Assembly: GCA_945870455.1 (NCBI GenBank)
Contig: CAMBSL010000019.1
Span: 1-43,095, forward strand
Reading direction: 5' to 3'
Origin: Pirellula staleyi DSM 6068
GTDB taxonomy: Bacteria; Planctomycetota; Planctomycetia; Pirellulales; Pirellulaceae
DNA length: 43,095 bases
Part shown: piece after piece, positions 2,331-36,296 of the stretch
Layout: each line of letters opens with the position of its first letter
Position numbering within the stretch: the stretch's first letter is position 1
The notes under the pieces: model-generated
Databases searched by the model: none
What the model was told of the DNA's origin: nothing
The model's input: only the letters and a program-made list of their open reading frames with translations
Translations under genes and position numbers: made by a program

Positions 2331-4046
2331 TCATGCATCGTGGACGGTTTCCCGGACCACTTCGTCTGCGGTCGTGAATCCGTCAAATACGAATTGCTTG
2401 CCATAATCTCGGAGGGTGATCATGCCGTAGGTTACAGCTTTGGCGCGCAAATCATCCGTCGTCGCATTCTGCATGATCATGTCCCTCAATTCGTCGTTCA
2501 TGACCATCAGTTCGAACAGTCCGATCCGCCCCTTGTAACCCGTGTTATTGCACAAGTCGCAGCCTTTGCCACGGAAAAATTTGTATTGGGATCTGGTCTC
2601 TTCGGTGACCCCAAGATCCATCAAAACTTCCATGCCGGGATCGGTTTCCTCGCGGCACTTGCTGCAAATACGACGAACAAGTCGCTGCGCCAAAATCGCT
2701 TCGACCGTGGCGGTGATCAAGAACGTCGGAATACCCATATCCTTCATCCGTGTGATCGTGCTCGGCGCATCGTTGGTGTGAAGGGTGCTAAAGACCAAGT
2801 GGCCCGTCAGCGACGCTTGAACTGCAATCTCGGCCGTCTCCAAATCGCGGATCTCGCCCACCAAGATGATGTCGGGGTCCTGTCGCAAAATGGCTCGCAA
2901 ACACGATGCAAACGTAACGCCAATATCATGATTGATCGGAATCTGAACGATGCCGTCGATGTCGTATTCAACCGGATCCTCGGTCGTGATGATTTTCTCT
3001 GTGATCTCGTTCATCTCGGACAACGCCGAATACAACGTTGTCGTCTTGCCTGAGCCTGTCGGACCTGTCACCAGCACGATTCCGTTCGGACGCTTCATCA
3101 CCGTTCGAAAGCCTTCCATGGTGACTGCATCCATGCCTACCTTGGTCAACGACAACGAGACGACCGAGCGGTCCAAAATCCGCATAACGACGCTCTCACC
3201 GAACATCGTCGGCAGCACGGAAACTCGCAAGTCGACTTGGTGACCGCCCACCATCAACTCGATTCGACCGTCCTGAGGCATCCGGCGTTCTGCAATGTCG
3301 AGGTTCGCCATAACCTTGATCCGCGTCGTGATGGCGAATGCAAGGTGACGAGGCGGTGGCACCATTTCATAGAGAACACCTTCGGCTTTGATCCGAATCT
3401 TGAATTCGTCCTCGAATGGTTCAAAGTGAATATCGCTGGCGTGATCTTTGATGGCTAGCAACATGACCAGGTTCAGCAGCTTGCGAACCGGAGCGCTATC
3501 GGCCAACGCTTCGGCTCCGTCGAGATCGAACTTGTCCCCCATCAGCATGCTAGCTTGCTGGAACAAGGTATCGTCGGCCTCCAATTCCTTGACGATCTTT
3601 TCAACGCTCAAGCTCTCGGACGAATAGAATCGCTCGATCGATGCTTTGATCTCGCGCTCGGTTGCGACCACCATTTCGATATCGATACCGAGGAACGTTC
3701 GCAGTTCATCTTGAATGGACAGATTCTGCGGATCGCAAGTGGCAACTGTCAGTGTATGCCCGTCGTACTTCACCGGGATAACGCGATAAAGCTGTGCCAT
3801 TGTCTCGGTGAGCTTCTCCAGCAACTCTGGAGCAATGGGTGCGTCTCCCAACGACACCACCTTCATGTTCTGTTGTTCGCCGAGGGCTTGGGCCAATTGA
3901 TCATCGGTGATCAACGACATGTCTTCGGCCAGTTTGCCAAGCAATGCACCTGGCTGCTGCTGTTGTTCATCCAGCAGCAATTGCAGTTGCTCGTCGGTCA
4001 CGAAACCCATGTCGACAAAGATCTGGCCTATACGTCGCGAACTCAT
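2331..4046 (-). CDS. GspE/PilB-family secretion/pilus assembly ATPase
   Basis: The 571-residue protein has two N-terminal T2SSE_N-like segments (MSSRRIGQIFVDMGFVTDEQ and a second copy about 30-60), then the hexameric ATPase. Visible motifs are HASDIHFEPFE (202-212), Walker A GPTGSGKT (328-335), the Asp box EDPVEY (356-361), Walker B IILVGE (393-398) and a zinc-binding four-cysteine set (C461, C464, C496, C499). It would power pseudopilin or pilin polymerisation through the PilC/GspF protein. Start ATG at 4046 is 19 bp after the pilT-type stop, so the two are likely co-transcribed. It is a paralogue of the gene at 5528-7282, not a duplicate: the N-terminal halves diverge strongly. Confidence 0.94.
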   Translation of the reverse strand: MSSRRIGQIFVDMGFVTDEQLQLLLDEQQQQPGALLGKLAEDMSLITDDQLAQALGEQQNMKVVSLGDAPIAPELLEKLTETMAQLYRVIPVKYDGHTLTVATCDPQNLSIQDELRTFLGIDIEMVVATEREIKASIERFYSSESLSVEKIVKELEADDTLFQQASMLMGDKFDLDGAEALADSAPVRKLLNLVMLLAIKDHASDIHFEPFEDEFKIRIKAEGVLYEMVPPPRHLAFAITTRIKVMANLDIAERRMPQDGRIELMVGGHQVDLRVSVLPTMFGESVVMRILDRSVVSLSLTKVGMDAVTMEGFRTVMKRPNGIVLVTGPTGSGKTTTLYSALSEMNEITEKIITTEDPVEYDIDGIVQIPINHDIGVTFASCLRAILRQDPDIILVGEIRDLETAEIAVQASLTGHLVFSTLHTNDAPSTITRMKDMGIPTFLITATVEAILAQRLVRRICSKCREETDPGMEVLMDLGVTEETRSQYKFFRGKGCDLCNNTGYKGRIGLFELMVMNDELRDMIMQNATTDDLRAKAVTYGMITLRDYGKQFVFDGFTTADEVVRETVHDA

Positions 4047-4065
4047 TAGCTCTAGTCCCTGTTAG

Positions 4066-5181
4066 CTAGGAATTGTGATCAAATTCTTCTTTTGGCTCTT
4101 CTTCGTCGAGGCCCCGTCTGGCATCTACGATTCGCTTGGCAAGATCGTCTGGGCGATGCGCCTTGGCCAAAATGTCTTCCACGGTGGCTCGACCTCCCTT
4201 CCAATGCTGAAACAGAGCGTCATCCATCAATTGCATTCCAAACTTGGCACCGGTCTGAATGGCCGAACCAATACGAAACGTTTTGTTTTCACGAATCAAG
4301 TTCGCGATGCCGGACGTAACAATCAAAATCTCATAAGCGGCCACTCGACCGCCACCGATCTTGGGAATCAGCGTCTGAGCAACCACGCCGAGCAAGCTGG
4401 TTGACAACTGCGTTCGAATTTGGTCCTGCAAGTTCCCCGGGAACGCATCGATCAACCGGTTTACGGTACCCATCGCACTATTGGTGTGCAGTGTTCCGAA
4501 AACGATGTGACCTGTTTCCGCCGCACTGATCGCAGCGGAAATCGTTTCCAAGTCCCGCATTTCACCCACCAGAATCACATCGGGATCCTGACGCAACGCA
4601 CGACGAATGGCTTCCGAGAAACTCGGAACATCCACCCCTACCTCGCGTTGATTGATGGTCGACTTTTTGTGCTCATGATAAAACTCGATCGGATCTTCGA
4701 TCGTGATGATATGGTGGTCGTGTCCCTCATTGATGAAGTTGACGATGCTTGCCAACGTGGTGCTTTTACCCGATCCGGTCGGCCCAGTCACCAACACCAG
4801 ACCTCGCGGCCGCAAGCACATTTTGATCACCGACTCAGGCAGTCCGAGCTGCTCTGGCGTCAACTTGTCGTTTGGAATCTGTCGGAGCACCATCGAGATG
4901 CAACCGCGCTGTTTGAAAATGGAAACTCGAAACCGGGCCAATGTTCCAAATGCAAACCCAAAGTCGGAACTACCCGATTCTTGAAGTTCGCGTTGGCACC
5001 GTTCGGGCGCAATGCTCTTCATCAACTGAACCGTATCGTCTGCCTCCAATACTTTCGTTTCAAGCTTTCGCATGCGACCATGCAAACGAAAGACGGGTGG
5101 CTGGCCCACCACGATGTGAATGTCGCTTGCCCCCTGCTTAATCGCAGCCTGAAGTAATTTGTCTACGAGGACTGTTGCCAT
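4066..5181 (-). CDS. PilT-family retraction/twitching ATPase
   Basis: The frame extends to a TTG at 5238, but ATG 5181 gives the family's usual N-terminus (MATVLVDKLLQAAIKQGASD, then the IHIVVGQPP segment). The 371-residue product has Walker A GPTGSGKS (133-140), Asp box EDPIEF (162-167), the AIRRALRQDPD motif (191-201), Walker B ILVGE (203-207) and a C-terminal GIANLIRE (291-298), which corresponds to the PilT signature AIRNLIRE. No zinc-finger cysteines are present, as expected for PilT rather than PilB. Length fits PilT (about 350-380). It would depolymerise pilin subunits in opposition to the neighbouring assembly ATPases. It is followed 19 bp later by the GspE/PilB gene. Confidence 0.93.
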   Translation of the reverse strand: MATVLVDKLLQAAIKQGASDIHIVVGQPPVFRLHGRMRKLETKVLEADDTVQLMKSIAPERCQRELQESGSSDFGFAFGTLARFRVSIFKQRGCISMVLRQIPNDKLTPEQLGLPESVIKMCLRPRGLVLVTGPTGSGKSTTLASIVNFINEGHDHHIITIEDPIEFYHEHKKSTINQREVGVDVPSFSEAIRRALRQDPDVILVGEMRDLETISAAISAAETGHIVFGTLHTNSAMGTVNRLIDAFPGNLQDQIRTQLSTSLLGVVAQTLIPKIGGGRVAAYEILIVTSGIANLIRENKTFRIGSAIQTGAKFGMQLMDDALFQHWKGGRATVEDILAKAHRPDDLAKRIVDARRGLDEEEPKEEFDHNS

Positions 5182-5527: not shown

Positions 5528-7282
5528 TTAACCCATGAATTCCTTGATGACTTTCTCGATGGCGATGTGTTCTTGCTCCGTCTTTTTGGCGGTGCGGTAA
5601 ACCTCATCCAAAGTGGTAATGCCCGTGAGGACTTTTCGCAACCCGTCGCAGTAAAGCGTTGTCATACCTGAGTTTATGGCCTCCGTTCGGAGATCGGCTG
5701 ACGACCGTCCTGCAAACATTTTCTCGCGCAGGCGACCGTTCACGATCATCAATTCGTAAATGCCGATTCGTCCTCGATAGCCCTTTTTTTGACAATAGGG
5801 GCAGCCTTTTCCCTTCGAGAATTTGGCGAATGGAACGATTTCCTTGGGCAATCCAGCGTCCTCCAAAACGGAATCGGACAGGGTTACAGGGACCTTGCAG
5901 CGGGTACAAATTTTGCGGACCAAACGCTGAGCCAGAACGGCGATCACGCTGCTGGCGACCATGTAACCGGGCACACCCATGTCGGTCATTCGAGTTACAG
6001 CGCTGGGTGCATCGTTTGTGTGCAGCGTACTAAATACCAAGTGTCCAGTCAGACTGGCTTGGATACCCATCTGAGCGGTTTCCGTATCTCGCATTTCCCC
6101 GACGAGGATGATGTTGGGTGCTTGACGCAACATGGCCCGAATAATTCTCGCAAAATCGAGCCCAATGTTGTGTCGCACTTCGACTTGATTGACGCCCGGG
6201 AGGTAGTACTCGACAGGGTCCTCGGCGGTGATGATCTTTCGGTCCGGTCGATTCAGGGCGTTCAGGGCGGCGTAGAGAGTAGTGGTCTTTCCGGAACCCG
6301 TTGGGCCGGTTACCAGAAAAATACCGTTGGGTCGCTTGATCAAGCCTGCAAACAATTTGAAGTCACGTTCGGCCAGGCCAAGCTGTTTGACCCCAACTTT
6401 GATGTTGTCTTTGTCAAGGAGACGCATAACGGCCGACTGGCCGTGGTTGGTCGGGATAATGCTGACCCGAAGATCCAGCTCCTTCTCGCCTACGGTGATC
6501 TTGATACGACCGTCTTGAGGTCGTCGCCGTTCGGCGATATCCATTTTGGCGAGGATCTTGATCCGAGAGAGAATGGCGTTGAGTAGTCTCCTAGGGGGGC
6601 TATCTCGCTCAACCAGGACGCCGTCAATTCGATAACGGATTCGGACTCGCTCTTCGAACGGTTCTACGTGAATGTCTGATGCTCGCAACTGGACCGCTTC
6701 GCCGATCATGTATTGAACGAGACGGACAACCGGGGCACTATCGTCTCCCCCGTCCTCGTCCTCCCGCATCTTGTCTTCTTCGGTTTCGGTGAAGTCGATT
6801 TGCGTGTCGGTGAATTCCTGCAACATCGAGTCAGCGGATTCACCCTCAACCTGGCCATAATATTTATTAATAGCTTCTTGGATGTGTTCTTGGGGTGCGA
6901 GTGCCGTTTCCACTTTGCGATTCAAAATGAAACGCAATTTTTCAATCGTTTCGATATCGAATGGGTCGGAAACGAGGACCTTGATGGTCTCATCTTCGTC
7001 GGAGATGGGGATGATTTTGTTTTCGCGGGCGACCGACTCGGGCACGAGCTGGATGACGTGGTCTGGAATCCGGATGACGCTCAAATCAACATATTCAAAC
7101 TTGTAGAATTCGGCGAGCGCTTGGGTAACCTCTTCGCCGGTGGCGTAGCCCAGTTTGACGAGGCATTGTCCGATGGACGTATCCTCTCTTTTCGAAATTC
7201 CTTTGGCTTCGGACAATTGCTCCAGGGCGATAATGCCGCGAGTGAGCAAAAGGTCGGTAAAATCGCGCATCGGCTGGTCCAT
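5528..7282 (-). CDS. PilB/GspE-family pilus assembly ATPase
   Basis: The 584-residue protein has an N-terminal T2SSE_N domain (about 1-145), an acidic linker (about 150-182, EETEEDK/EDEDGGDD) and the ATPase core. Motifs are RASDIHVEPFEE (200-211), Walker A GPTGSGKT (326-333), Asp box EDPVEY (354-359), Walker B IILVGE (391-396) and four zinc-binding cysteines (C459, C462, C494, C497). It is the first gene of the minus-strand pilus/secretion set and sits 346 bp before pilT. ATG 7282 is used; ATG 7270 (MRDFTDLL) is also possible. A near-consensus -10 (TATAAT on the minus strand, 7419-7424) lies upstream without a well-spaced -35. Confidence 0.94.
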   Translation of the reverse strand: MDQPMRDFTDLLLTRGIIALEQLSEAKGISKREDTSIGQCLVKLGYATGEEVTQALAEFYKFEYVDLSVIRIPDHVIQLVPESVARENKIIPISDEDETIKVLVSDPFDIETIEKLRFILNRKVETALAPQEHIQEAINKYYGQVEGESADSMLQEFTDTQIDFTETEEDKMREDEDGGDDSAPVVRLVQYMIGEAVQLRASDIHVEPFEERVRIRYRIDGVLVERDSPPRRLLNAILSRIKILAKMDIAERRRPQDGRIKITVGEKELDLRVSIIPTNHGQSAVMRLLDKDNIKVGVKQLGLAERDFKLFAGLIKRPNGIFLVTGPTGSGKTTTLYAALNALNRPDRKIITAEDPVEYYLPGVNQVEVRHNIGLDFARIIRAMLRQAPNIILVGEMRDTETAQMGIQASLTGHLVFSTLHTNDAPSAVTRMTDMGVPGYMVASSVIAVLAQRLVRKICTRCKVPVTLSDSVLEDAGLPKEIVPFAKFSKGKGCPYCQKKGYRGRIGIYELMIVNGRLREKMFAGRSSADLRTEAINSGMTTLYCDGLRKVLTGITTLDEVYRTAKKTEQEHIAIEKVIKEFMG

Positions 7283-7711
7283 GAAAAGCCTTCAGCAAAA
7301 AGCAACTGAGACGAGTGGAAAACGTGGGTGGTTTATCTGGGGGTAGATCCAACACTCAAGTATATCGCACGCCCAGTTCCTTCAACAAACACCTTTCCGG
7401 AACTTTCAACTCCTTTTCATTATAAAAAGGGTAGATTCGGGCTATTAGGCGCATCGTCAATTGTTTTTCAACCCAATTAGCCGTTGGGCGATAGCCCCGG
7501 TTTTCCAATGGCTCGACATTCGTCGAGAACCGGGGCTATCGCCCATCGGCTGTCAGTTTGTTTCACGCGAAGACTCAACCCGATGCGCTTAACCTGCCTA
7601 AGGCGAGCGGCGGGGCGTCGACTATTTAGCCGATAATTAGCCGAAAAACCTGAACCAACCGCAGCTCAAGGCTGCGGGATTCCAATGAAATACCGCAGGC
7701 TCGACCTGCTA
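7283..7711. other. Intergenic region carrying a 148-bp structured element and small hairpins
   Basis: This 429-bp gap lies upstream of the pilB-type gene and downstream of the TIM-barrel gene. It contains the dispersed element at 7445-7592 (listed separately). Nearer the TIM-barrel stop is the hairpin CCGCAG-ctcaagg-CTGCGG (7658-7676), plus GCAGG-ctcga-CCTGC just past the stop codon. Both could end the TIM-barrel transcript, though neither has a clear T-tract on the minus strand. No ORF is credible. Confidence 0.55.
7445..7592 (+). repeat. Dispersed structured element, copy 1 (TIR plus long internal hairpin)
   Basis: The ends are inverted repeats: TTAGGCGCATCG (7445-7456) and CGATGCGCTTAA (7581-7592). 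Inside is a long hairpin whose 17-bp perfect core GGGCGATAGCCCCGGTT (7486-7502) pairs with 7528-7544; it extends outward with one mismatch to CCG/CGG (7481, 7549). Bases 7465-7594 align without gaps to 33140-33269 with 8 differences (about 94% identity by eye). It carries no ORF, which suggests a MITE-like or RNA-structured repeat. Confidence 0.8.
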
Positions 7712-8653
7712 CTAGGCGACGTCCATGACCATTGCACCGTGACGGAACGACCGAACCGGATCCTTCCAAGTGGGAATAAACTCTTGAGCGACGAAGCCTT
7801 GGTAGCCGGTCGCGAGGATGGCTTTCAAGATGGGGGGATAGTTGATCTCTTGCGACTCGTCCATTTCAGCCCGACCTGGATTGCCGGCGGTGTGATAGTG
7901 CCCGATCAAGGGATGATACTTTTCGATCCGGCGAATGACGTCGCCGTTCATGATCTGAACATGATAAATGTCGAAAAGCAGCTTGAAATTGGCTGAATCC
8001 ATGCGTTTGACTAAATCAATGCAGCGTTCGACATCGTCGCCGAAATAGCCTGGATGCCCCTTCATCGGGTGAGAGTCATCGCGTGAGTTTAGGTGTTCGA
8101 GGACCAAGGTTATGTTGTTCTTTTCGGCATGCTCGATGACTTTCTTCCAGCAATCGAGGCAGTTCGCTTCTGCGGTTGAGTCGAGCATGTTGGGACTACG
8201 CATTCCGGTGAACGTGATGACGCTAGGCGCACCAAACTGGACAGCCAAGTCGATACTTTGGCTCAACTTATCGATACACTCGCGGTGGTTGGCTGGGTTC
8301 ACTGGACCTGTTGCGAAACCATGGCTTCCGACCAATGCAATTTGGAGTCCCTTGGCTTTCGCCAGCGGGTAGAACTTGGCATCGATTCCCTCGATGGCCT
8401 CCAGGCCAATCTCAACGCAATGATCGATTAGTTCCGACTCGGGCATCGGTTTGAAGCACCAGCCCATAACCGATTGTCGGATGCGGCGATTCGTAATTTT
8501 AAAGCGGTCCGGAACGGAATCTTGAGGAACTTGAATTGGCATTGCTTGAATTGGTTTCGCATTCGTGGATGCCAACGTCGTGCCTGCCAGAACTGCGGCG
8601 CTGGCAAGGAGACTTCGACGTGATAATTGGCTGGGTTGCGGATTGGTTTGCAT
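7712..8653 (-). CDS. Tat-exported sugar phosphate isomerase/epimerase (hydroxypyruvate-isomerase-like TIM barrel)
   Basis: The reading frame opens at 8695, but ATG 8653 (MQTNPQPSQLSRRSLLASAA) puts a twin-arginine signal near the N-terminus; either start keeps the signal. The mature part is an AP-endonuclease-2-type TIM barrel. Likely metal ligands of this family are visible as LVLEHLN (Glu), LLFDIYHVQ (Asp/His), IGHYHTAGNPGR (His) and VAQEFIP (Glu). Known relatives isomerise hydroxypyruvate or epimerise small sugars; the substrate here is unknown. Planctomycetes hold many Tat-exported members of this family. Neighbours give no pathway hint: a pilus operon downstream and an unknown large protein upstream on the same strand (about 100 bp away). 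Confidence 0.85.
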   Translation of the reverse strand: MQTNPQPSQLSRRSLLASAAVLAGTTLASTNAKPIQAMPIQVPQDSVPDRFKITNRRIRQSVMGWCFKPMPESELIDHCVEIGLEAIEGIDAKFYPLAKAKGLQIALVGSHGFATGPVNPANHRECIDKLSQSIDLAVQFGAPSVITFTGMRSPNMLDSTAEANCLDCWKKVIEHAEKNNITLVLEHLNSRDDSHPMKGHPGYFGDDVERCIDLVKRMDSANFKLLFDIYHVQIMNGDVIRRIEKYHPLIGHYHTAGNPGRAEMDESQEINYPPILKAILATGYQGFVAQEFIPTWKDPVRSFRHGAMVMDVA

Positions 8654-8751
8654 GAGGGGACTTGTGGGGCTGAGTCGACGGATTGACTTTCGCATCCCAA
8701 TGTAGTGCGAGCAGGATCACGGAACAAGCAGCGGAGCAGCGTGCGCGAGAC

Positions 8752-17575: not shown

Positions 17576-17589
17576 TGCGACTAGCCCTA

Positions 17590-17694
17590 CTAGCCGTCGG
17601 AACGGCCCTGCTAGCCGTCGGAACGGCCCTGCTAGCCGTCGGGATGGCCCTACTAGCCGTCGGGATGACCCTGCTAGCCGTCGGGATGATCGAG
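17590..17694 (+). repeat. Tandem array of five 21-bp units at the 3' end of a nucleotidyltransferase gene
   Basis: Units begin at 17590, 17611, 17632, 17653 and 17674. Each has the form CTAGCCGTCGG followed by RAYGRYCCTR or similar. The last unit is the actual 3' end of the minus-strand gene: its CTA is the stop codon and CCGTCGGGATG encodes the final H-P-D-G. The array therefore looks like serial duplication of that gene's end outward. A degenerate unit (CTAGCCCTA) precedes it at 17581. Confidence 0.8.
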
Positions 17695-19780: not shown

Positions 19781-20392
19781 TTGGCGAAGCTTTTTTTTTA
19801 CTATTCTACGATGAACGCTGGCAAGTCGACGATCTTGCTCCAGTCCAGCTACAACTATCGAGAACGCGGAATGAACACGCTCGTCTTCTCGCCCGAAATC
19901 GATGATCGGTTTGGCGTTGGGAAGATTAGCTCTCGAATTGGACTGCAAGCGGACTCGATCGCGTTCTCGCACTCAGTCAATTTGTTTCGTTCCATTCAAA
20001 AAGAGCACGCGAAGAAAACCGTCCACTGCGTGCTCGTCGACGAATCGCAGTTCTTGACTCGCCAGCAAGTGCGACAATTGAGCGATGTTTGCGATGACCT
20101 GGACATCCCGGTTTTAGCCTATGGACTCAGAACCGATTTTCAAGGGAATTTGTTTGAGGGTAGCCAACATTTGATGGCTTGGGCCGATACGCTCAACGAG
20201 ATCAAAACCATTTGCCACTGCGGACGCAAGGCAACCATGGTCCTGCGAATCGACGGCAGCGGAAAACCAGTTCGAGAAGGAGAACAAATCCAAATCGGTG
20301 GCAACGAACGCTACGTCTCCGTCTGCCGAAAGCATTTCAAAGATGGACTCGCGGAAAGAAACTCACAAGATTTACCGTTCGAAGATCTCTAA
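19781..20392 (+). CDS. tdk: Thymidine kinase
   Basis: The 203-residue protein matches class II thymidine kinase. It has the P-loop STMNAGKST (9-17), the catalytic/Walker-B DESQF (87-91), the lasso region [15 protein letters not shown] (145-159) and zinc ligands C145, C147 and C182 with H185. It phosphorylates thymidine in nucleotide salvage. Start is TTG at 19781, immediately after the preceding TAG, with AGGAG about 10 bases upstream inside the ABC gene, so translation is coupled. The TAA stop (20390-20392) is the first three bases of a 14-bp tandem array. Confidence 0.95.
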
Positions 20393-20459
20393 CCGTCGGG
20401 CACTAACCGTTGGGCACTAACCGTCGGGCACTAACCGTCGGGCACTAACCGTCGGGATC
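20390..20459 (+). repeat. Tandem array of five 14-bp units starting at the tdk stop codon
   Basis: Five contiguous units (20390, 20404, 20418, 20432, 20446) read TAACCGTCGGGCAC, with one C-to-T variant and the last ending ATC. The first TAA is the tdk stop. Read on the minus strand, the last unit holds the stop and final D-P-D-G codons of a nucleotidyltransferase relic. The core TARCCGTCGGG is the same as in the 21-bp array at 17590-17694. Confidence 0.85.
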
Positions 20460-21930: not shown

Positions 21931-22343
21931 TCTGAGTGCGGGTAGATTCACGAACAACTCTTAGCGGAGCGGCAGACTGAAACTACCAATCATAACCCGA
22001 TACGTAGCGGCTTGTTGCTTTAATGGATTGTGAGACGGGGTATTCCAAAGTGGCATGGGCTCGATCGCGCTCATCTTCACCCACAATTCGAAGCAAGCCA
22101 GACTCGAAATCCCAATGGATTTGCGTGATCCCAGCGCATTTTCTCCCCCTCGCCCCGTTTTCGGCGTTTTCGGGGAGAGAGGGTCGGGGGGTGAGGGCAA
22201 TTACAGAGCGAGGGGAGCAAGATCAAAAGATATGGGTAAAGATGAGGCTGGAAGCGCTGGAAGCCTATGTCACACTGAACAACAGATTGCATTTTCCGCG
22301 CGATACTTGACAACAAGAAATTGGATTAACGTTTAACACTTCG
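21931..22343. other. Intergenic region with a third REP-like element
   Basis: This 413-bp gap contains a palindromic element at 22141-22200 (listed separately) and the 15-mer GAGCGAGGGGAGCAA (22206-22220), which is shared with 14897-14911. A minus-strand frame (21961-22200) ending MIGSFSLPLR is open but lacks a credible start or family. TTGACAACAAGAAATTGG at 22306 offers a possible -35 for the downstream gene; a -10 is unclear. Confidence 0.5.
22141..22200 (-). repeat. REP-like palindromic element, copy 3
   Basis: Read on the minus strand it starts CCCTCACCCCCCGACCCTCT and continues CTCCCCG, matching the element at 661-690 with a few differences. It then forms an imperfect hairpin (CTCGCCCCG against CGGGGAGAG) around a TTTTCGGCGTTTT loop. 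Confidence 0.65.
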
Positions 22344-27658: not shown

Positions 27659-27733
27659 GCAGTTTTTCCTCTCCCGATCGCCTAAGAAGGCGAAGCTGAG
27701 CTTGTGAATGTGATGCCAGTACTCTAACTCGGA

Positions 27734-28957
27734 TTATTGAAACCCATCGTTGCGTGGCCCGTCATTGCGTGGCCCGTCATTGCGTGGCCCATCGTTGCGT
27801 GGCCCGTCATTGCGTGGCCCGTCATTGCGTGGCCCGTCATTGCGTGGCCCGTCATTGCGTGGCCCGTCATTGCGTGGCCCGTCGTTACGTGGCCCGTCGT
27901 TACGTGGCCCGTCGTTACGTGGCCCGTCGTTACGTGGCCCGTCGTTGCGTGGCCCGTCGTTACGTGACCCATCGTTGCGTGGCCCGTCATTACGTGGCCC
28001 GTCATTGCGCGGCCCATCGTTATTTCCTCTGAGATTTGGGCCCCCGAATTCCGGTCTGAAATTGCGAGGTACTTGTCCTTGTTGCATTCTTGGGTTTGGC
28101 CTGCCTTGCATTAGATTCATGGCTGGCATGGGTGGCATTTGGCCAAGGTTGGGCATATTGCGATCGGGTCCGCCAGGACTTCGCTGTCGTTCTGCTCGCT
28201 CCATTGCTTGTTTTTCTCGCATCATCGACTCGATCGACTGAAGCGATCGATTGATGTTTCTAAGCAACTCCAAACTTTCAGCATGGTTGGCAGATTCTTG
28301 AGCCGCGTGATGTAAGTTTTGACCTTGCATCGGTGAAGGTGTAGGCATTTGTATTGGGTAGGGCATGTGCATTGGGGAAGGTGCAGGCATTTGCATCGGC
28401 GGCATTTGCATTCCCGGCACTTGGTTTCCCGGAATTTGTAGGTGCATTGTGGAATGTGCGGGCAGCATCGGCACTCTAGGGGATGGCGCATTCATTTTCG
28501 GCATTTTTATTGGGGATTTGGCATTCTTATCGCTTTTCTTACGATCGACATCGTCGTCGTCTTCATCGTCGTCGTCTTCATCGTCCTCGTCTTCATCGTC
28601 CTCGTCTTCATATCGCGACTTTACACTCTGCTTTTTGATCTGGGCGATCAAGTCATTGACGCGTTGAATGTCTCCCTTTTTACCCTTGGTGATAACCAAC
28701 CCCATCTCGGGTACGAACGAAATGTCGACATCGCCGATGAGGCCACTTTCCGCCGCTAACGCGTCAGGAGAACGAACGATAGTAGCACGCAAAGTGCCGT
28801 TATTCTCAGACGCTTCGACGGTTACGGTCGTGGTCTTGTCCTGTTCGGTTGGCTCTTGGTAAGTCGCCATTGCGTTCGAAATCGCTAGCAAACAAGCCAC
28901 TAGGGGGAAAACAATCAGAAAACAATGTTGCATTGTTCTTGGCATGATCTTGTCCAT
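27734..28957 (-). CDS. Secreted repeat-rich protein with a secretin-N-like segment, an acidic run and a C-terminal NDGPR array
   Basis: The frame is open from 29080, but that would overlap the glycosyltransferase; ATG 28957 (MDKIMPRTMQHC) or 28945 places a signal peptide (CFLIVFPLVACLLAISNAMA) correctly and gives about 407 residues. The order is: a short fold, VDISFVPEMGLVITKGKKGD plus IQRVNDLIAQIKKQ, that resembles the N-domain of secretins; an acidic run of about 22 Asp/Glu; a Met/Pro-rich region (MQMPPMQMPAPSPMHMPYPI); a coiled-coil-like helix (LELLRNINRSLQSIESMMRE); and 19 units of the five-residue repeat NDGPR to the C-terminus. The whole reads like an exported, largely disordered protein. 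Its function is unknown. Confidence 0.8.
   Translation of the reverse strand: MDKIMPRTMQHCFLIVFPLVACLLAISNAMATYQEPTEQDKTTTVTVEASENNGTLRATIVRSPDALAAESGLIGDVDISFVPEMGLVITKGKKGDIQRVNDLIAQIKKQSVKSRYEDEDDEDEDDEDDDDEDDDDVDRKKSDKNAKSPIKMPKMNAPSPRVPMLPAHSTMHLQIPGNQVPGMQMPPMQMPAPSPMHMPYPIQMPTPSPMQGQNLHHAAQESANHAESLELLRNINRSLQSIESMMREKQAMERAERQRSPGGPDRNMPNLGQMPPMPAMNLMQGRPNPRMQQGQVPRNFRPEFGGPNLRGNNDGPRNDGPRNDGPRNDGSRNDGPRNDGPRNDGPRNDGPRNDGPRNDGPRNDGPRNDGPRNDGPRNDGPRNDGPRNDGPRNDGPRNDGPRNDGFQ
27737..28021 (-). repeat. 15-bp coding tandem repeat, 19 units (NDGPR)
   Basis: Nineteen contiguous 15-bp units (285 bp) on the minus strand encode NDGPR, with one NDGSR and a terminal NDGFQ. Units vary only at synonymous positions (AAT/AAC, GAC/GAT, CGC/CGT), mostly in blocks, so the array grew by local duplication under purifying selection on the peptide. 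Confidence 0.9.
28547..28613 (-). repeat. GAC/GAA codon-run coding the acidic stretch
   Basis: Trinucleotide repeats (GTC/TTC/ATC on the plus strand) encode an uninterrupted run of about 22 Asp/Glu residues in the secreted protein at 27734-28957. It is a slippage-prone tract that could vary in length without breaking the frame. Confidence 0.7.
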
Positions 28958-29024
28958 TGTCAAAAAAGAGGATGCGGGTATGGGGTCGCTACGGATATAG
29001 GCAACTACATAGTACTCTAGAGAC

Positions 29025-30104
29025 TCAACCCCAGAACAGGGGAATAGTTTCTCGCTGCAATCGCTCGTAAATTGCTTCAAGCCGATTGGCGAAGTTCTCA
29101 GGAGAGCATATTTGTCGAACTCGGGCTTGAGCTGAGGCTCCGTACGATTCGATCAAGTTGCGGTCGCCGTGGAGTTGGATGATTGAATCGCGAAGAGCGG
29201 AAAAATCCTCAGACGGAAAAACGAGACCATCGACACCATGGCGAACCATTTCCTTCATGCCGCCAGCATCGCTGACGAGGGGGCAAATCGACTGGTCCAT
29301 CGCTTCGAGAAGAGCTCGACAAAGTCCCTCACGCCGCGATGGCATGACGAATACATCGAAAATCGGCATCATCCTTTGAGCGTCAATCAAATGACCCGTC
29401 AATTTCACTCGATTTCTGAGACGGTTGTCCCGTGCAAGCTCAGCCACGTGTGGATCTCTCTGTTCGCCAAAAACCAGGAAATGAATCTTGGGCAAGGATG
29501 CGCACTCGGCGGCGGCCCGCATGAAGATGTCAATTCCCTTGACCGGGCGAATGCAAGCGGCAGTTCCAACCACAAACGCGTCTGCGGGAATGTCAAATCT
29601 CTGCCGCAGATCGGCTCGTTTCTCGAGCGATTGGGCTGGAACCACGCAATTGTAAATCACTTCACATTTTTCGTTCGGAACTCGTCCCCGGGTCATCGCC
29701 TGTTTCACGGCCTCCGATTCGCAAGCATGAGTGTCTACTCTCGGCGAAAGATAAGTGATCCAATCCGCAGGATCAAACGGGGAAGGCACTCGCGTTATCC
29801 CAAGGAAAGACATGATGATTGGTCGTGGCTTCAAACCAATACATCCGATCACGGATTGAGCAAGCGAGGCTGGTAAAAATGCGTGAATCAAATCTGGTTT
29901 GAAGCGCTGAACCGTTTGTCGCAACAATCGGATAGCTGCCGAATCGATCTTTTTTCTCCCTCGAAATTGCAGAAACTCGCAACGTGGGTGCTTCAGTTCT
30001 GCTTCGATATGCGAAACCTCGCCGTCCGCAATAAGCAAATCGTGATCGCGACGACTCATCTCGCGTACAAAACCATGCGGTGCGTTGATCAGAAGTAGTC
30101 GCAT
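29025..30104 (-). CDS. Family 4 glycosyltransferase
   Basis: The 359-residue protein has a GT-B fold. The N-terminal domain begins MRLLLINAPHGFVREMSRRD and includes FKPDLIHAFLPASLAQSVIG. The nucleotide-sugar domain has VVGTAACIRPVKGIDIFMRA, LVFGEQRDPHVAEL, LTGHLIDAQRMMPIFDVFVM, then the EGLCRALLEAM and GMKEMVRHGVDGLVF stretches with the Glu-x7-Glu pattern of retaining GT4 enzymes. It would transfer a sugar from a nucleotide donor to a glycan or lipid; the acceptor is unknown. The start at 30104 is 18 bp after the stop of a small upstream frame. It is tail-to-head with the repeat protein downstream. Confidence 0.9.
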   Translation of the reverse strand: MRLLLINAPHGFVREMSRRDHDLLIADGEVSHIEAELKHPRCEFLQFRGRKKIDSAAIRLLRQTVQRFKPDLIHAFLPASLAQSVIGCIGLKPRPIIMSFLGITRVPSPFDPADWITYLSPRVDTHACESEAVKQAMTRGRVPNEKCEVIYNCVVPAQSLEKRADLRQRFDIPADAFVVGTAACIRPVKGIDIFMRAAAECASLPKIHFLVFGEQRDPHVAELARDNRLRNRVKLTGHLIDAQRMMPIFDVFVMPSRREGLCRALLEAMDQSICPLVSDAGGMKEMVRHGVDGLVFPSEDFSALRDSIIQLHGDRNLIESYGASAQARVRQICSPENFANRLEAIYERLQRETIPLFWG

Positions 30105-31837: not shown

Positions 31838-32698
31838 ATGGCAAAGCAACACTACGGCAAAAAACCGCGAAAAAGCGTCTCGGCAGGCAGTCATCAAGCC
31901 AACTGGCTTTGGGGACAACAGTCGGTTATCGATACACTCGAGGCAGATCGATGGCGAGTCTATGAACTCTTCGTGACACAGGAAGTGTTTGAGCAACACG
32001 CAGATTTGCTGCAAGCCAAGCAGAAACAAGGAACAGAGCTGGAAATCGTATTAACAGCTCGGCTCGATGAACTGTCTCGAACCTCGGAGCATCAAGGGAT
32101 TGTCGCGCGGGTCTCTAAATACCCCTACCAAACAACGGATGAACTCGGAATCCAATTGCGTCTGGCTCAGGAAGATACGAGCACTCCGAAACTCTTACCG
32201 CTCGTGGTTATTGTCGACCGCATCCAAGACGCCTTTAACTTCGGTGCGATCCTGCGTTGCTGCGAGAACGCAGGTGTGTGCGCCGTGATCATTGGCGAGC
32301 ATTGTCAAACGCAAGTTACACCGCAGATTGCTCGTTCATCCTCTGGAGCCGTCAATCACATTTCGATTGTTAAAACTGACGATTTGGTTAGCGCCGCGAA
32401 ATTCTTGCAAGAGCTTGGCCTGAAGCTGGTAGCAGTAGAAACAGACGCAAGTCAAATCGTTTGCGATACCCCTTTGAACATGCCAACTGCGTTGATTATC
32501 GGCAGCGACAACCATAGCATTGAGCCTCATCTTCTCGAGCTATGCGAGCAACGTATCAGCATTCCGATGCAAGGCAAAATCCGCTCGCTCCCGTCCTCTG
32601 TTTTGGCTGGAATCATGTTGTACGAAATTCGACGTCAGCAACATTCGACGTCAGCAACATTCGACGTCAGCAACAATGACCGCTGCCAACTAACTTGA
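31838..32698 (+). CDS. TrmH/SpoU-family RNA 2'-O-methyltransferase (RlmB-like)
   Basis: The 286-residue protein has a basic N-terminus (MAKQHYGKKPRKSVSAGSHQ), a substrate-binding domain starting NWLWGQQSVIDTLEADRWRV, and a SPOUT knot. Motif 1 is VDRIQDAFNFGAILRCCENA with the catalytic-type Arg. Motif 2 is ALIIGSDNHSIEP and motif 3 is ISIPMQGKIRSLPSSVLAGI. Both deviate from the usual GxExxG and SLNVSVA, so activity or specificity may differ. RlmB-type enzymes methylate G2251 of 23S rRNA. The C-terminus is odd: a 16-bp sequence is repeated three times (32627-32674), so the last 20 residues read through it in all frames. Confidence 0.88.
   Translation: MAKQHYGKKPRKSVSAGSHQANWLWGQQSVIDTLEADRWRVYELFVTQEVFEQHADLLQAKQKQGTELEIVLTARLDELSRTSEHQGIVARVSKYPYQTTDELGIQLRLAQEDTSTPKLLPLVVIVDRIQDAFNFGAILRCCENAGVCAVIIGEHCQTQVTPQIARSSSGAVNHISIVKTDDLVSAAKFLQELGLKLVAVETDASQIVCDTPLNMPTALIIGSDNHSIEPHLLELCEQRISIPMQGKIRSLPSSVLAGIMLYEIRRQQHSTSATFDVSNNDRCQLT
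32627..32674 (+). repeat. Three perfect 16-bp tandem repeats at the 3' end of the RNA methyltransferase gene
   Basis: ATTCGACGTCAGCAAC occurs three times in direct, contiguous repeat. Because 16 is not a multiple of three, each unit is read in a different frame (IRRQQ, then HSTSAT, then FDVSNN). The duplication therefore created the present C-terminal tail and brought the stop to 32698. Confidence 0.85.
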
Positions 32699-33106
32699 TT
32701 CGCGGAATGCGGATCGCACTATTTCTGGGATCTCCGTTAACTTGAGGGTGGCGAGATCTACGAACACCCAACGGGTTTCTGCCAATGCGCAGGTTCGGCC
32801 GTCCGATTTTCGCACAATTTCGTATTTCCGAAGCGAAGAGACTTTCTCAAGGTCTTCGATCCAGGTTCGAATCTCGATCTGGTCCCCCAGGATTGCCGGG
32901 ACTTTGTAAGTGATCTGATGCGATCGAACAATCCAACTTGCACCCAATTCGCGATACCGCTCCGATGGCCAGCCCACATTGCGAGAGTGTTCTGACGCAG
33001 CTTTGAGCGTCCATCTCAAGTATTGCAGGTTATTGACGTGATTCATTTCGTCCAAATCCTCGTGGCCAACCATGCGTTCCACGATATAGATTTTGCTGTG
33101 AGCCAT
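32690..33106 (-). CDS. Acyl-CoA thioesterase, 4HBT/YbgC-like hotdog fold
   Basis: ATG 33106 (MAHSKIYIVERMVGHEDLDE) gives 138 residues; the frame extends to 33130. The hotdog signature is HEDLDEMNHVNNLQYLRWTL, with the Asp of the family's active site in the position of D-xx-NHVNN. It is followed by the strand WIVRSHQITYKVPAILGDQI. The family hydrolyses acyl-CoA thioesters, and YbgC-like members often sit in lipid pathways; the substrate is unknown. Its 3' end overlaps the convergent RNA methyltransferase gene by about 9 bp. A 147-bp dispersed element lies just upstream (33121-33267). Confidence 0.88.
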   Translation of the reverse strand: MAHSKIYIVERMVGHEDLDEMNHVNNLQYLRWTLKAASEHSRNVGWPSERYRELGASWIVRSHQITYKVPAILGDQIEIRTWIEDLEKVSSLRKYEIVRKSDGRTCALAETRWVFVDLATLKLTEIPEIVRSAFRESS

Positions 33107-33120
33107 TTTGGTTCCTTTGT

Positions 33121-33267
33121 CTAAGCACATCCGGATATGTTTTCAACCCAATTAGCCGTTGGGCGATAGCCCCGGTTTTCCAATGGCTCGACATTCGTCG
33201 AGAACCGGGGCTATCGCCCTTCGGCACTCAGTTTGTTTCACTCGAAGACTCATACCGATGTGCTTAG
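33121..33267 (+). repeat. Dispersed structured element, copy 2 (supplies the ppc stop codon)
   Basis: The ends are CTAAGCACATCC (33121-33132) and CGATGTGCTTAG (33256-33267), an 11-bp perfect inverted repeat. The internal hairpin has the same 17-bp core GGGCGATAGCCCCGGTT as copy 1 (7445-7592). Compared with copy 1, the TIR differs by G-to-A on the left and C-to-T on the right, which restores pairing. The right end contains TTA (33264-33266), the TAA stop of ppc on the minus strand. Confidence 0.8.
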
Positions 33268-36056
33268 CCGGTGGTTCCCAACCCGCTGGCGATCGCGTTA
33301 ACGGTCAAGAGAAGCTGCGGAACGAGCGACTCGGCGGATTGGGGTTGGCCCATTTTATGATAGCTACGCCACATCTTTAAAAGGGAAATTTGCTGACGGT
33401 GCAGAACTCGAAGACCGCTGGCTCGCAGTTGCATCATCCGTTGAATGTTCGGTCGCCTTTCTGCCAGCGGGCCACCGTAAATGCGTTCTATCATCTGCGT
33501 GGTGCGATTCAACTCCGCTTCGATTGGATCCATGCACGATCGACGCAACGCGACATCCTCGACCATTTCGGAATACTCGCGCATGATCTCAAGATCGGTC
33601 GCAGCAATCGAGGTCGCTACGTTGCTGATCAAGTAATGCAAAGGAGCCCATTGCTGCAGCACTTTTGACAATTCGAGAAACTGCTTTTCGTCTTCGTGCA
33701 GGAGACGCTCCAAAGCAGAGCCAACGCCGTACCAACCCGACAAGAAAAAGCGTGCCTGCCCCCAACTAAAGACCCATGGGATTGCGCGAAGATCTGAAAG
33801 TGATTGCTTACCGGTCCGGCGCGATGGCCGCGATCCGATACGGCTCTGTTCGATCGCATCAATCGGAGTTGCCGTGCGAAAGAACGCAACAAATCCGTCT
33901 TGATTTAGTAGCCCGGTGTACGAATCGCGAGCCCACGTGGCCATGTGATCGAGAGTTGCATCCAGTGGATGGTCATGGACTTCGCTGACTTGGTCTAAAA
34001 GCGTTTTGCGTGTAACACCAGCCAAAAACAACTCCAAGTTATACATGGCAGTCGATTGATGTGCGTATTTCTGCGGAATCGTTTCTCCTTGTTCTGTCAC
34101 TCGCAAGTCACCACGCAATGTCTGGTTCTCAAGAGACTTGATGAAGCGATGCGTTGGACCTGCACCGCGACTGATTGTTCCACCTCGTCCGTGAAAGAAA
34201 CGAACTCGGACTTGATGCCTTCGTCCCACCGTTGCCAGTGCTTTCTGAGCCTGACGGAGATTGACCAAACTCGCGAGAATGCCTCCGTCTTTGTTGCTGT
34301 CGCTGTATCCAATCATGATTTGCCCAATGGCTTCACCCGAACCGTCTCGGATTTGGATCGATCGCAGGGTTCGTTGGGTTACTGGGTGCGACAAGAAAGA
34401 ATCAAAGATCGCCGGGCTCCCCTTCAAATCGTCGACCGTTTCAAACAACGGTACAACGGGCAACAGACATTGCAATCCACTGGCTGTCTCCTCCATCAAT
34501 CCGACTTCTCGGGCGAGCAAGTAGACAACTAATAGGTCCGAGGTATTGCGAGTCATGCTGACAATGAGCGAACCGAGCCCATCGGAGCCGTATGCATGAT
34601 AGTGCTCCTTGACGACACGTAGCGCAGATAAGACAGCATCTGCTTCTGCTCCCACGGAAACCTCCGGTCGGGCAAATGGGCGACGCGATTCAAGCTCTCT
34701 CTCCAAAAGTGCCAGCCGTTCTTTTTCGCCCCACTGGGAAAAATTGCTATCTGGGAAACCGGCTGCTGCCAGCAGTTGATCGACTGCTTTGTCATGAAAG
34801 GAACTGTTCTGCCGAATGTCCAGGACCGCGAGATGAAACCCAAATGTTTGAACGACCCGCATCAATGGTTGCAGCGCGTAGTCGGCCGGTCGACGCATTC
34901 CCGCAGCAATGAGCGAATCATACAACAATCGCAAATCGACTAGCAACTCGGACGAACGTTGATAGGTGGGCGGCGGTTGAAAAACGACACGATCCGAAGG
35001 TGCGTCCGAAGCTGGCAATCGAACAATCATAGTATTGATGAACTGCCGCCAAGGTTCGTTTGGATTGCGTTCAATGGCTTTTTTTCCTTCTGGTCCAAGC
35101 CTGTCGGCGATACTCGCCAAGGCTTGAAGGAACTCAGGTTTGGGCCGTTGCCAGTAGGCCGAAAGGCTCAGCAATCTCGCCAATTGCTGAAGTTGTCGCG
35201 TTACCAATCCGAGTGCGCTACGACGCATCTCTAGCAAACTTGTCCGGGTCACATCTGCGGTCACCAATGGATGCCCATCGCGATCCCCACCCACCCAGGT
35301 TCCAAACGTTAGTTTTGGGAACACCAACGGATCATCAAAAACACAAGGGTCCAATCCAACTTGGGTCCACGCGCGACGAAGACGTTGATCGAGTGGACGC
35401 AACACCGACGGAAAAACTTGTGTCAGGTAGTCGAGTACGTTGCGTCGTTCCGATTGGATATCGGGCTTATCTAGGTAAATTTCTCCCGTCCGCCACAGAA
35501 TCGCTAATAACGCCCGGACAGCGAAATCGTTATCTTCTTGTTGTGGATCGCAATGCCGATGCAATGGTTCTTGGGCAAGCTTTTGAAGCGAATTGGTTTG
35601 AAAGCGTTCAAATAGCCGGCGATGATGAGCCAGAACGGTTGCGCGTTTGGCTTCGGTTGGGTGGGCGGTTAGCACAAGCTCTACCTGCATGTTTGGCAGT
35701 TCTCGCGCGATCTGCTCCGAAGTCCAGCCAGCGTCCTTCAATTGCTTCAACGAGTCCCCCCAAAGCGCGGGCAGTGCATCCATACCCGACACTTGCTCGA
35801 TCGATTTCCGAAATTGATCTGCTGCATTCTGCTCGGCCATCCCAAGCAATTGAAAGGCGATTGAGTATGCCTGGGTAAGATGTACCGAATCGGCTAATAC
35901 TTCGCCAGCAACTTGGATATCTCCGCCGGTAGGCAAGGCAGCGGCCAAATCGGCCGCCCCCGATTCTACAAGCACGTCTTTTAGGCAGCACAGGATCCAA
36001 TTCCATTGTCCCAACAAACTCGTTTCGTCGAGTGCAAGTACGCTTTCAGCAACCAT
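33264..36056 (-). CDS. ppc: Phosphoenolpyruvate carboxylase
   Basis: The frame opens at 36128, but ATG 36056 (MVAESVLALDETSLLGQWNW) gives a cytosolic N-terminus and 930 residues. Signature motifs are VLTAHPTEAKRATVL with the catalytic His, GTWVGGDRDGHPLVT, MIGYSDSNKDGGILAS, and FFHGRGGTISRGAGPTH with the catalytic Arg/His loop, then LRVTEQGETIPQKYA. The C-terminus ends in GLGTTG; most PEPCs end in (R/Q)NTG, so the last residues differ slightly. The enzyme makes oxaloacetate from PEP and bicarbonate to feed the TCA cycle. It is a lone gene. Its stop codon lies inside the right end of the dispersed element at 33121-33267. Confidence 0.95.
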   Translation of the reverse strand: MVAESVLALDETSLLGQWNWILCCLKDVLVESGAADLAAALPTGGDIQVAGEVLADSVHLTQAYSIAFQLLGMAEQNAADQFRKSIEQVSGMDALPALWGDSLKQLKDAGWTSEQIARELPNMQVELVLTAHPTEAKRATVLAHHRRLFERFQTNSLQKLAQEPLHRHCDPQQEDNDFAVRALLAILWRTGEIYLDKPDIQSERRNVLDYLTQVFPSVLRPLDQRLRRAWTQVGLDPCVFDDPLVFPKLTFGTWVGGDRDGHPLVTADVTRTSLLEMRRSALGLVTRQLQQLARLLSLSAYWQRPKPEFLQALASIADRLGPEGKKAIERNPNEPWRQFINTMIVRLPASDAPSDRVVFQPPPTYQRSSELLVDLRLLYDSLIAAGMRRPADYALQPLMRVVQTFGFHLAVLDIRQNSSFHDKAVDQLLAAAGFPDSNFSQWGEKERLALLERELESRRPFARPEVSVGAEADAVLSALRVVKEHYHAYGSDGLGSLIVSMTRNTSDLLVVYLLAREVGLMEETASGLQCLLPVVPLFETVDDLKGSPAIFDSFLSHPVTQRTLRSIQIRDGSGEAIGQIMIGYSDSNKDGGILASLVNLRQAQKALATVGRRHQVRVRFFHGRGGTISRGAGPTHRFIKSLENQTLRGDLRVTEQGETIPQKYAHQSTAMYNLELFLAGVTRKTLLDQVSEVHDHPLDATLDHMATWARDSYTGLLNQDGFVAFFRTATPIDAIEQSRIGSRPSRRTGKQSLSDLRAIPWVFSWGQARFFLSGWYGVGSALERLLHEDEKQFLELSKVLQQWAPLHYLISNVATSIAATDLEIMREYSEMVEDVALRRSCMDPIEAELNRTTQMIERIYGGPLAERRPNIQRMMQLRASGLRVLHRQQISLLKMWRSYHKMGQPQSAESLVPQLLLTVNAIASGLGTTG

Positions 36057-36296
36057 AAATATTAGAAACGGCAAACAGTGGGTTGATACGCCCCGAAGAG
36101 CTTTTTGGTGCCGCATTCTGAGAGACACACGAGAGGATCCGCATAGCCTAAACTCAATTACCGATTGCCGCTACTTCGTTTGTCAGCTCGCAACGAAACT
36201 ATTTCAACCTGCTTTCCAACCACTTGACCGTTACCAACGGTTATAATACGGTTTTCTTGCAACCGAACATTCACCCCCTTTTTGAAGGGCCCCACC

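Follow-up and report, generated by a model that had tools for sequence, protein, structure and literature searches.

A multicopy family of probable IS630-type MITEs with a palindromic core in Pirellula-like planctomycetes

Introduction

Among the short repeats of bacteria, RUP and the Correia elements duplicate a TA dinucleotide, and IS630, to go by the title of a paper from 1991, reportedly inserts preferentially at TA within CTAG. Duplication of TA together with defined tips is not a known trait of REP sequences.

RUP of Streptococcus pneumoniae is described as a short, gene-less, high-copy element with terminal inverted repeats (TIRs) like those of a resident IS630 element (PMC3049150). For the Correia elements of Neisseria a length of ~100–200 bp, 26-bp TIRs, more than 120 copies lying mostly beside genes, and promoter, IHF and RNase III functions are given (PMC10969869, PMC3049150). 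For Nezha, a miniature inverted-repeat transposable element (MITE) of cyanobacteria, mobilisation in trans by way of TIR likeness has been proposed, with an ISNpu3-like partner (PMC3049150). IS630 elements duplicate TA on insertion (PMC2170065), and REPs are sequences of 20–40 bp with a GTAG or CGTC tag (PMC3733652). In the open-access literature we found no paper on a MITE family of the kind reported here in planctomycetes, and the string "planctomycet" is absent from a MITE review of 2024 (PMC10969869).

Here we analysed a contig of 43,095 nucleotides (C19, below called the window) from a draft genome of Pirellula staleyi DSM 6068 (G000; 5.84 Mb, 386 contigs, 92.5% complete). It contains two copies of a repeat which very probably belong to a family of non-autonomous MITEs of the IS630 (Tc1/mariner) type in Pirellula-like planctomycetes, designated family A. 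The family is new as a family; the IS630-type MITE itself is a known kind of element. Compared by description, RUP (107 bp, with ends like those of IS630-Spn1) and family A are both short, gene-less and high-copy; they differ in host, and the IS630 element with ends matching family A was found only in a sister species, not in the host draft. With the Correia elements, again as described, family A has in common a length within 100–200 bp, TIRs, many copies and TA duplication; it differs in that its TIRs are imperfect, about eight bases at the tips being well conserved, and in its long palindrome at the centre. Nezha and family A, to judge from the description of the former, are alike as bacterial MITEs with proposed trans-mobilisation.

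Results

With both TAs included, copy 1 occupies positions 7446–7591 of the window on the + strand (TA 7446–7447, element 7448–7589, TA 7590–7591) and copy 2 positions 33122–33266, also on the + strand (TA 33122–33123, element 33124–33264, TA 33265–33266). The left TIR tip of copy 1 (7448–7455, +) reads GGCGCATC, the family consensus being AGCACATC, and its right tip (7582–7589, −) is GATGCGCT as read on the + strand. In copy 2 the left tip (33124–33131, +) is AGCACATC and the right tip (33257–33264, −), as read on the + strand, is GATGTGCT. The two copies align without gaps over 130 nt (7465–7594 and 33140–33269) with eight differences (94% identity), and their TIRs are GCGCATC/GATGCGC (copy 1) and GCACATC/GATGTGC (copy 2). 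The palindromic core, to which no strand was assigned, extends over 7479–7551 in copy 1 and 33154–33226 in copy 2. It contains a perfect 17-bp inner stem (7486–7502 with 7528–7544; 33161–33177 with 33203–33219), and in copy 1 also a foot (7479–7483/7547–7551) and a small hairpin (7512–7527). Alignment and folding thus bear out the preliminary description of these two copies, in which their similarity, the TIRs and the inner stem had been noted.

Single-strand folding of both copies, as DNA for the + strand and as RNA for both strands, gave z-scores of −8.1 to −9.4 against shuffled sequences, and none of 200 shuffles was equally stable. As RNA, the two strands folded about equally stably. A 26-nt arm pattern with at most three mismatches was found three times, against 0.00 expected by chance.

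The neighbours of copy 1 are a gene for a type II/IV secretion ATPase (T2SSE, MshEN; 5528–7282, −) and one for a xylose isomerase-like TIM barrel protein (7712–8695, −). Copy 2 is bordered by a PEP carboxylase gene (33264–36128, −) and, on the other side, by a gene for a thioesterase-like protein (32690–33109, −), the start of which was set at an ATG outside the copy. The stop codon TAA of the PEP carboxylase gene (33264–33266) is composed of the TA duplicate and the last base of copy 2. No promoter-like or terminator-like site had its body inside either window copy, and a promoter or terminator role was rejected on this ground; the tail of one weak terminator-like site (stem 33100–33114) extends to the edge of copy 2.

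Other repeats were observed in the window as well. Tandem arrays of 21-bp and 14-bp units (CTAGCCGTCGGG.. and CTAACCGTCGGGCA) at 17584–17688 and 20389–20458 resemble the core arm; a long array of 15-bp units at 27683–28072 (18 overlapping 135-nt matches) overlaps an ORF at 27734–29080; and another palindromic repeat, CCCTCACCCCC..CTCTCCCCG in type, is dispersed, with occurrences at 570–717 and 22136–22197.

Family A elements are ~142 bp long, or ~146 bp with the duplicated TAs, have the layout TA-AGCACATC...GATGTGCT-TA and code for nothing. BLAST revealed at least 40 full-type matches in the host genome with 87–100% identity, 40 of 115 initial candidates having been scored, and a covariance model built from 30 copies (R1) gave at least 140 matches, both strands counted, from the 150 of 3254 initial candidates scored; a cmsearch on 94 host loci yielded 113 matches at E 1e-9. 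Leaving out opposite-strand matches, four duplicate loci and two damaged or other-type loci (L218, L219), at least 84 distinct copies are present, of which 81 include both ends and three (L197, L216, L217) are partial, which disposes of the earlier reservation that only two copies might exist.

Among the 68 of 84 copies compared at their tips, the left consensus tip was exact in 41 and the right one in 37. Exactly 146 bp in length are 45 copies, and the 44 of these that lie within 25 differences of the consensus deviate from it at 8.2 positions and from one another at 14.4 positions on average. This near-star pattern suggests spread from few source copies.

TA was found at both ends of 54 of the 81 end-to-end copies; its lack at one or both ends of the other 27 is read as decay. 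The context C-TA...TA-G was shared by 26 of the 54 TA-bounded copies, compared with 72 of 1127 TAs in the flanks (6.4%; binomial p 3e-17).

The decisive case for mobility of the family is copy 2, whose locus is uninterrupted in a close relative, G016: TTTGTC-TA-GCCGG is found there, and TTTGTC-TA-element-TA-GCCGG in the window. The flanks align in two pieces (1–524 and 666–1201, 94% and 97% identical) that overlap by two bases, a clean TA duplication. At this empty site the PEP carboxylase stop codon is TAG, so the insertion of copy 2 turned it into TAA and left the protein unaltered. In G009 the element is also absent from the copy 2 locus, where other sequence is present. Copy 1 is absent from the orthologous site in both G016 and G009; the right-hand sequence differs there and the junction is not clean. 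The empty sites in relatives that had been proposed as a check thus exist, cleanly for copy 2 and with an unclear right junction for copy 1. Joined flanks were also used to look for paralogous empty sites within the host genome: 15 rows spanned the junction, some of them being self-matches of the element, with one fair case (L184 versus L058, 90 nt at 84%); other cases, at 74–78%, are weaker and are given no weight here.

These data bear on whether the repeat multiplied because larger segments or genes were duplicated, and not by transposition, a reading that we consider extremely improbable. Three host copies (L016, L164, L204) have flanking sequence common to all three; this locus was probably duplicated along with its element, and in some copies, then, element and surroundings did travel together. 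Against the reading as a general one, copies 1 and 2 have different neighbour genes, and the 18-nt flanks of other copies look unrelated by eye. For copy 2 the exactly empty site in G016 refutes it.

The copies lie between genes. A stop-free frame of at least 200 codons spanned none of 29 family A empty sites but 93 of 116 control positions, and one of at least 100 codons spanned 7 of 29 compared with 110 of 116; the 29 are those of the 84 copies that have long flanks on both sides, and the controls were placed 600–900 bp away.

In 40 genomes (the host and 39 relatives) R1 gave matches in 11. Judged from two or more matched loci per genome, family A ends occur in at least seven of 25 same-genus genomes, namely G000, G009, G016, G020 and G023 and, in diverged form, G002 and G003. 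Family A end fragments together with a core of another type were found in G024; in the loci read from G021, G022 and G039, the R1 matches were confined to the core. Planctomycete MAGs, Pirellula sp. Tobar2m-G36 and "Pirellula staleyi" MiH-22jul19-314 among them, contain a 28-base stretch of the core without mismatch, and all 80 loci among the matches listed, with at least 84 stretches, belong to such MAGs. The plasmid collection searched contained no match. Taken with the TA duplication, the orthologous empty site and the CTAG preference, this patchy presence between species upholds the MITE-like mobile repeat that had been offered as one of two explanations.

A source of transposase was also sought. 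The host has two DDE_3 fragments, both at contig ends; one runs off its contig and the other has different ends. Where an end could be read, it was CTAGTGTTCTGTCC, which agrees with family C (see below) and not with family A, and the fragment was rejected as the family A parent. No transposase with family A tips was found in the host draft, with its 386 contigs, 92.5% completeness and one fragment off-contig. Altogether 18 DDE_3 matches were obtained across nine genomes, and one of them (L111, on contig C51 of G016) lies in an IS630 element of 1180 bp with the tips TAAGCACGTC...GACGTGCTTA and with C and G outside; at none of the other DDE_3 loci was the transposase bracketed by a pair of such tips. 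The protein encoded at L111 (P0001, 338 aa) scored 178 bits with the NCBIfam IS630 transposase model (cut-off 100) and 99 bits with DDE_3.

Family A and the L111 element share nine of ten terminal bases at each end, TA included. Their likeness is limited to the outer ~8–12 bp, which makes L111 kin at best; CGGATATG is a further stretch common to copy 2 and the L111 element, displaced by two bases. Among 27 same-genus genomes P0001 was found only in G016, and it had no match in the host. Two proteins of G006 are 44% identical to it and are associated with different tips, TAAGCAGGTG; weak partial matches of 25–30% occur in G006, G012, G013 and G018. On the strength of the tips, the L111 element is a plausible candidate for kin of the family A mobiliser, and the tip likeness would fit trans-mobilisation by an IS630 enzyme of the L111 clade. 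TA duplication is common to family A and the IS630 family (ISY100, IS630), and the CTAG preference is as reported for IS630; the G016 element carries a transposase between near-identical tips, whereas family A is non-coding.

Long TIR pairs were also considered as candidate autonomous elements, and 10 spans of 200–2500 bp were obtained, among them L111 and including L013, L094, L128, L129 and L218. Several loci were rejected as autonomous elements. L279 and L277 represent ends of separate copies or chance pairs. L353 (184–708, G016) is a family A element holding nested repeats, including a family B-like end pair. In L286 (2412–4613, G016) a group II intron interrupts a family A copy at the hairpin foot; the insert has an RT/maturase gene at 3208–4509 (TIGR04416, 395 bits, cut-off 300, plus RVT_1 and GIIM), and an Rfam search of the insert gave no intron match at threshold.

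The core arms, AGCCGTTGGGCG(A/C)TAGCCCCGGTT and their complement, recur in repeats with other ends. Family B, with the ends GGAGACTGCTGATTTAG/CTAAATCAGCAGTCTCC, comprises L219 and L349 in the host and L089, L090, L109 and L110 in G022/G024; at L219 and L349 a different palindromic repeat (CTCTCCCCG type) appears to hold it within its loop. Family C was found at nine host loci (L221–L223, L345–L348, L350, L351), with the right part only at L221 and the left only at L351; at the other seven (L222, L223, L345–L348, L350) it is a repeat of ~130 bp with CTAGTGCTTTGTC-type ends, the same core and a short loop. Aligned over 31 columns with four gaps, the end of family C and that of the IS630 fragment on host contig C225 agree in 25. 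Two further host loci with one loop type are bare cores, L220 (79 nt) and L352 (75 nt), and no TIRs were seen by eye within 70–75 nt of their flanks. More distant cores occur in G021, G003 and G039.

A model of the core (R2) was run on 119 genomes across the phylum, with stricter filters and 41 candidates scored per genome, and gave matches in seven, the host included. Those in G065, G089 and G110 appear to be bare hairpins between genes, and their loops differ; weak matches in G085 and G122 look unrelated. The bare cores L259 and L256 of two related species (G089, G110) have matching surroundings and near-unchanged arms, while the loop is largely replaced. Separately, in G023 the central hairpin loop of L107 (and also of L134) has the opposite orientation to that of L087, as though the palindrome had been turned round.

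Throughout the shared cores, pairing is kept although the loops differ. One reading, which we put forward tentatively and hold to be somewhat less probable than not, is that the core is a portable module: homologous 24-nt arms would be present in at least three families with unrelated ends, either captured repeatedly by transposons or itself mobile. It covers family A with AGCACATC tips, family B with GGAGACTGCTGATTTAG, family C with CTAGTGCTTTGTC, the two bare cores and low-copy cores of other planctomycete genera.

The bare cores also recall REP/REPIN-type palindromes moved by a RAYT (tyrosine) transposase, for which the TIR-like ends would be incidental. L220 and L352 share a loop and lack TIRs visible by eye, bare-looking cores are present in other planctomycete genera, the palindromic core is long, and both REPs/REPINs and family A are high-copy intergenic palindromes. 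Family A differs from them in length, however, being outside the range of 20–40 bp, and has TA duplication and defined tips, and no GTAG/CGTC tag was seen in it; already weak for family A, this explanation is highly unlikely.

The preliminary description had taken the TIR difference between the window copies as a sign that the fold is under selection. Over the 30 family A copies, 95.0% of cells in the named structure are paired, compared with 94.9% in shuffles; three cells show double changes (2.2 in shuffles), as do three pairs (mean 1.9). At the eight terminal pairs, scored in 68 of the 84 copies after a filter on the last two bases had dropped 16, there were seven double changes against 5.3 expected (p 0.28). 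At the TIR position in question, copy 1 is the only clear pair-keeping double change. The family consensus has GCACATC, which makes an A-T to G-C change in copy 1 the better interpretation, and, with no excess of covariation within the family, a single event; selection on the fold, as claimed from the TIRs, is not supported.

A different result was obtained with cores from families with different ends. Here 14 double-change cells were counted against 4.2 (0/500 shuffles), with a covariation score of 0.076 against 0.035 (0/500); pairs with a double change numbered 4 against 2.0 (18/500) and further pair types 9 against 7.1 (56/500). The alignment consists of 32 chosen rows, 30 of them distinct, picked via a hairpin-model match, and related rows inflate the counts. 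The inner palindrome thus has an excess of paired changes across families, though not on every measure, and none was found within family A. The alignments are suggestive of a palindromic core that is maintained across families.

The other explanation offered at the outset was a structured RNA. According to it, the repeat would be a non-coding RNA or a regulatory hairpin whose RNA fold is maintained by selection, with its spread secondary. The very stable fold of the copies, their intergenic position and the 14 double-change cells across families (0/500) are in its favour; yet the excess covariation is absent within family A, and the measures least prone to relatedness (4 versus 2.0 pairs; 9 versus 7.1 pair types) are weak. 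Moreover, both strands fold about alike, the bodies of promoter- and terminator-like sites lie outside both window elements, and orthologous presence/absence with TA duplication is the mark of a mobile element. Rfam gave no match at the gathering threshold in the window; the sub-threshold matches, MIR4359 (30 bits, E 0.00045, cut-off 75 bits) and mir-1490 (14.7 bits), seem to be hairpin mimics. Given the lack of within-family covariation and of an Rfam match at threshold, we rejected the structured RNA as the main reading and regard it as unlikely.

Discussion

As a non-autonomous IS630-type MITE, family A would most likely be mobilised by an IS630-family (Tc1/mariner) DDE transposase made elsewhere, which would bind the tips and cut and paste the element. 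Copies would build up through re-insertion after excision or replication, and selection would remove those that land in genes. Mobility can be accounted for without the inner palindrome, which is carried along with the element and probably behaves as a strong hairpin when the DNA is single-stranded or when it is part of read-through RNA.

With family A, the planctomycetes gain a MITE family with a target site, an empty site and a candidate IS630 relative. Its approximately 84 very stable intergenic hairpins differ between sister species, which makes them a natural source of differences in expression. A question posed by the shared core is why the same palindrome is found in transposons with unrelated ends. 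If the portable-core reading is true, the core may help transposons, e.g., through transcription insulation or through hairpin extrusion during replication.
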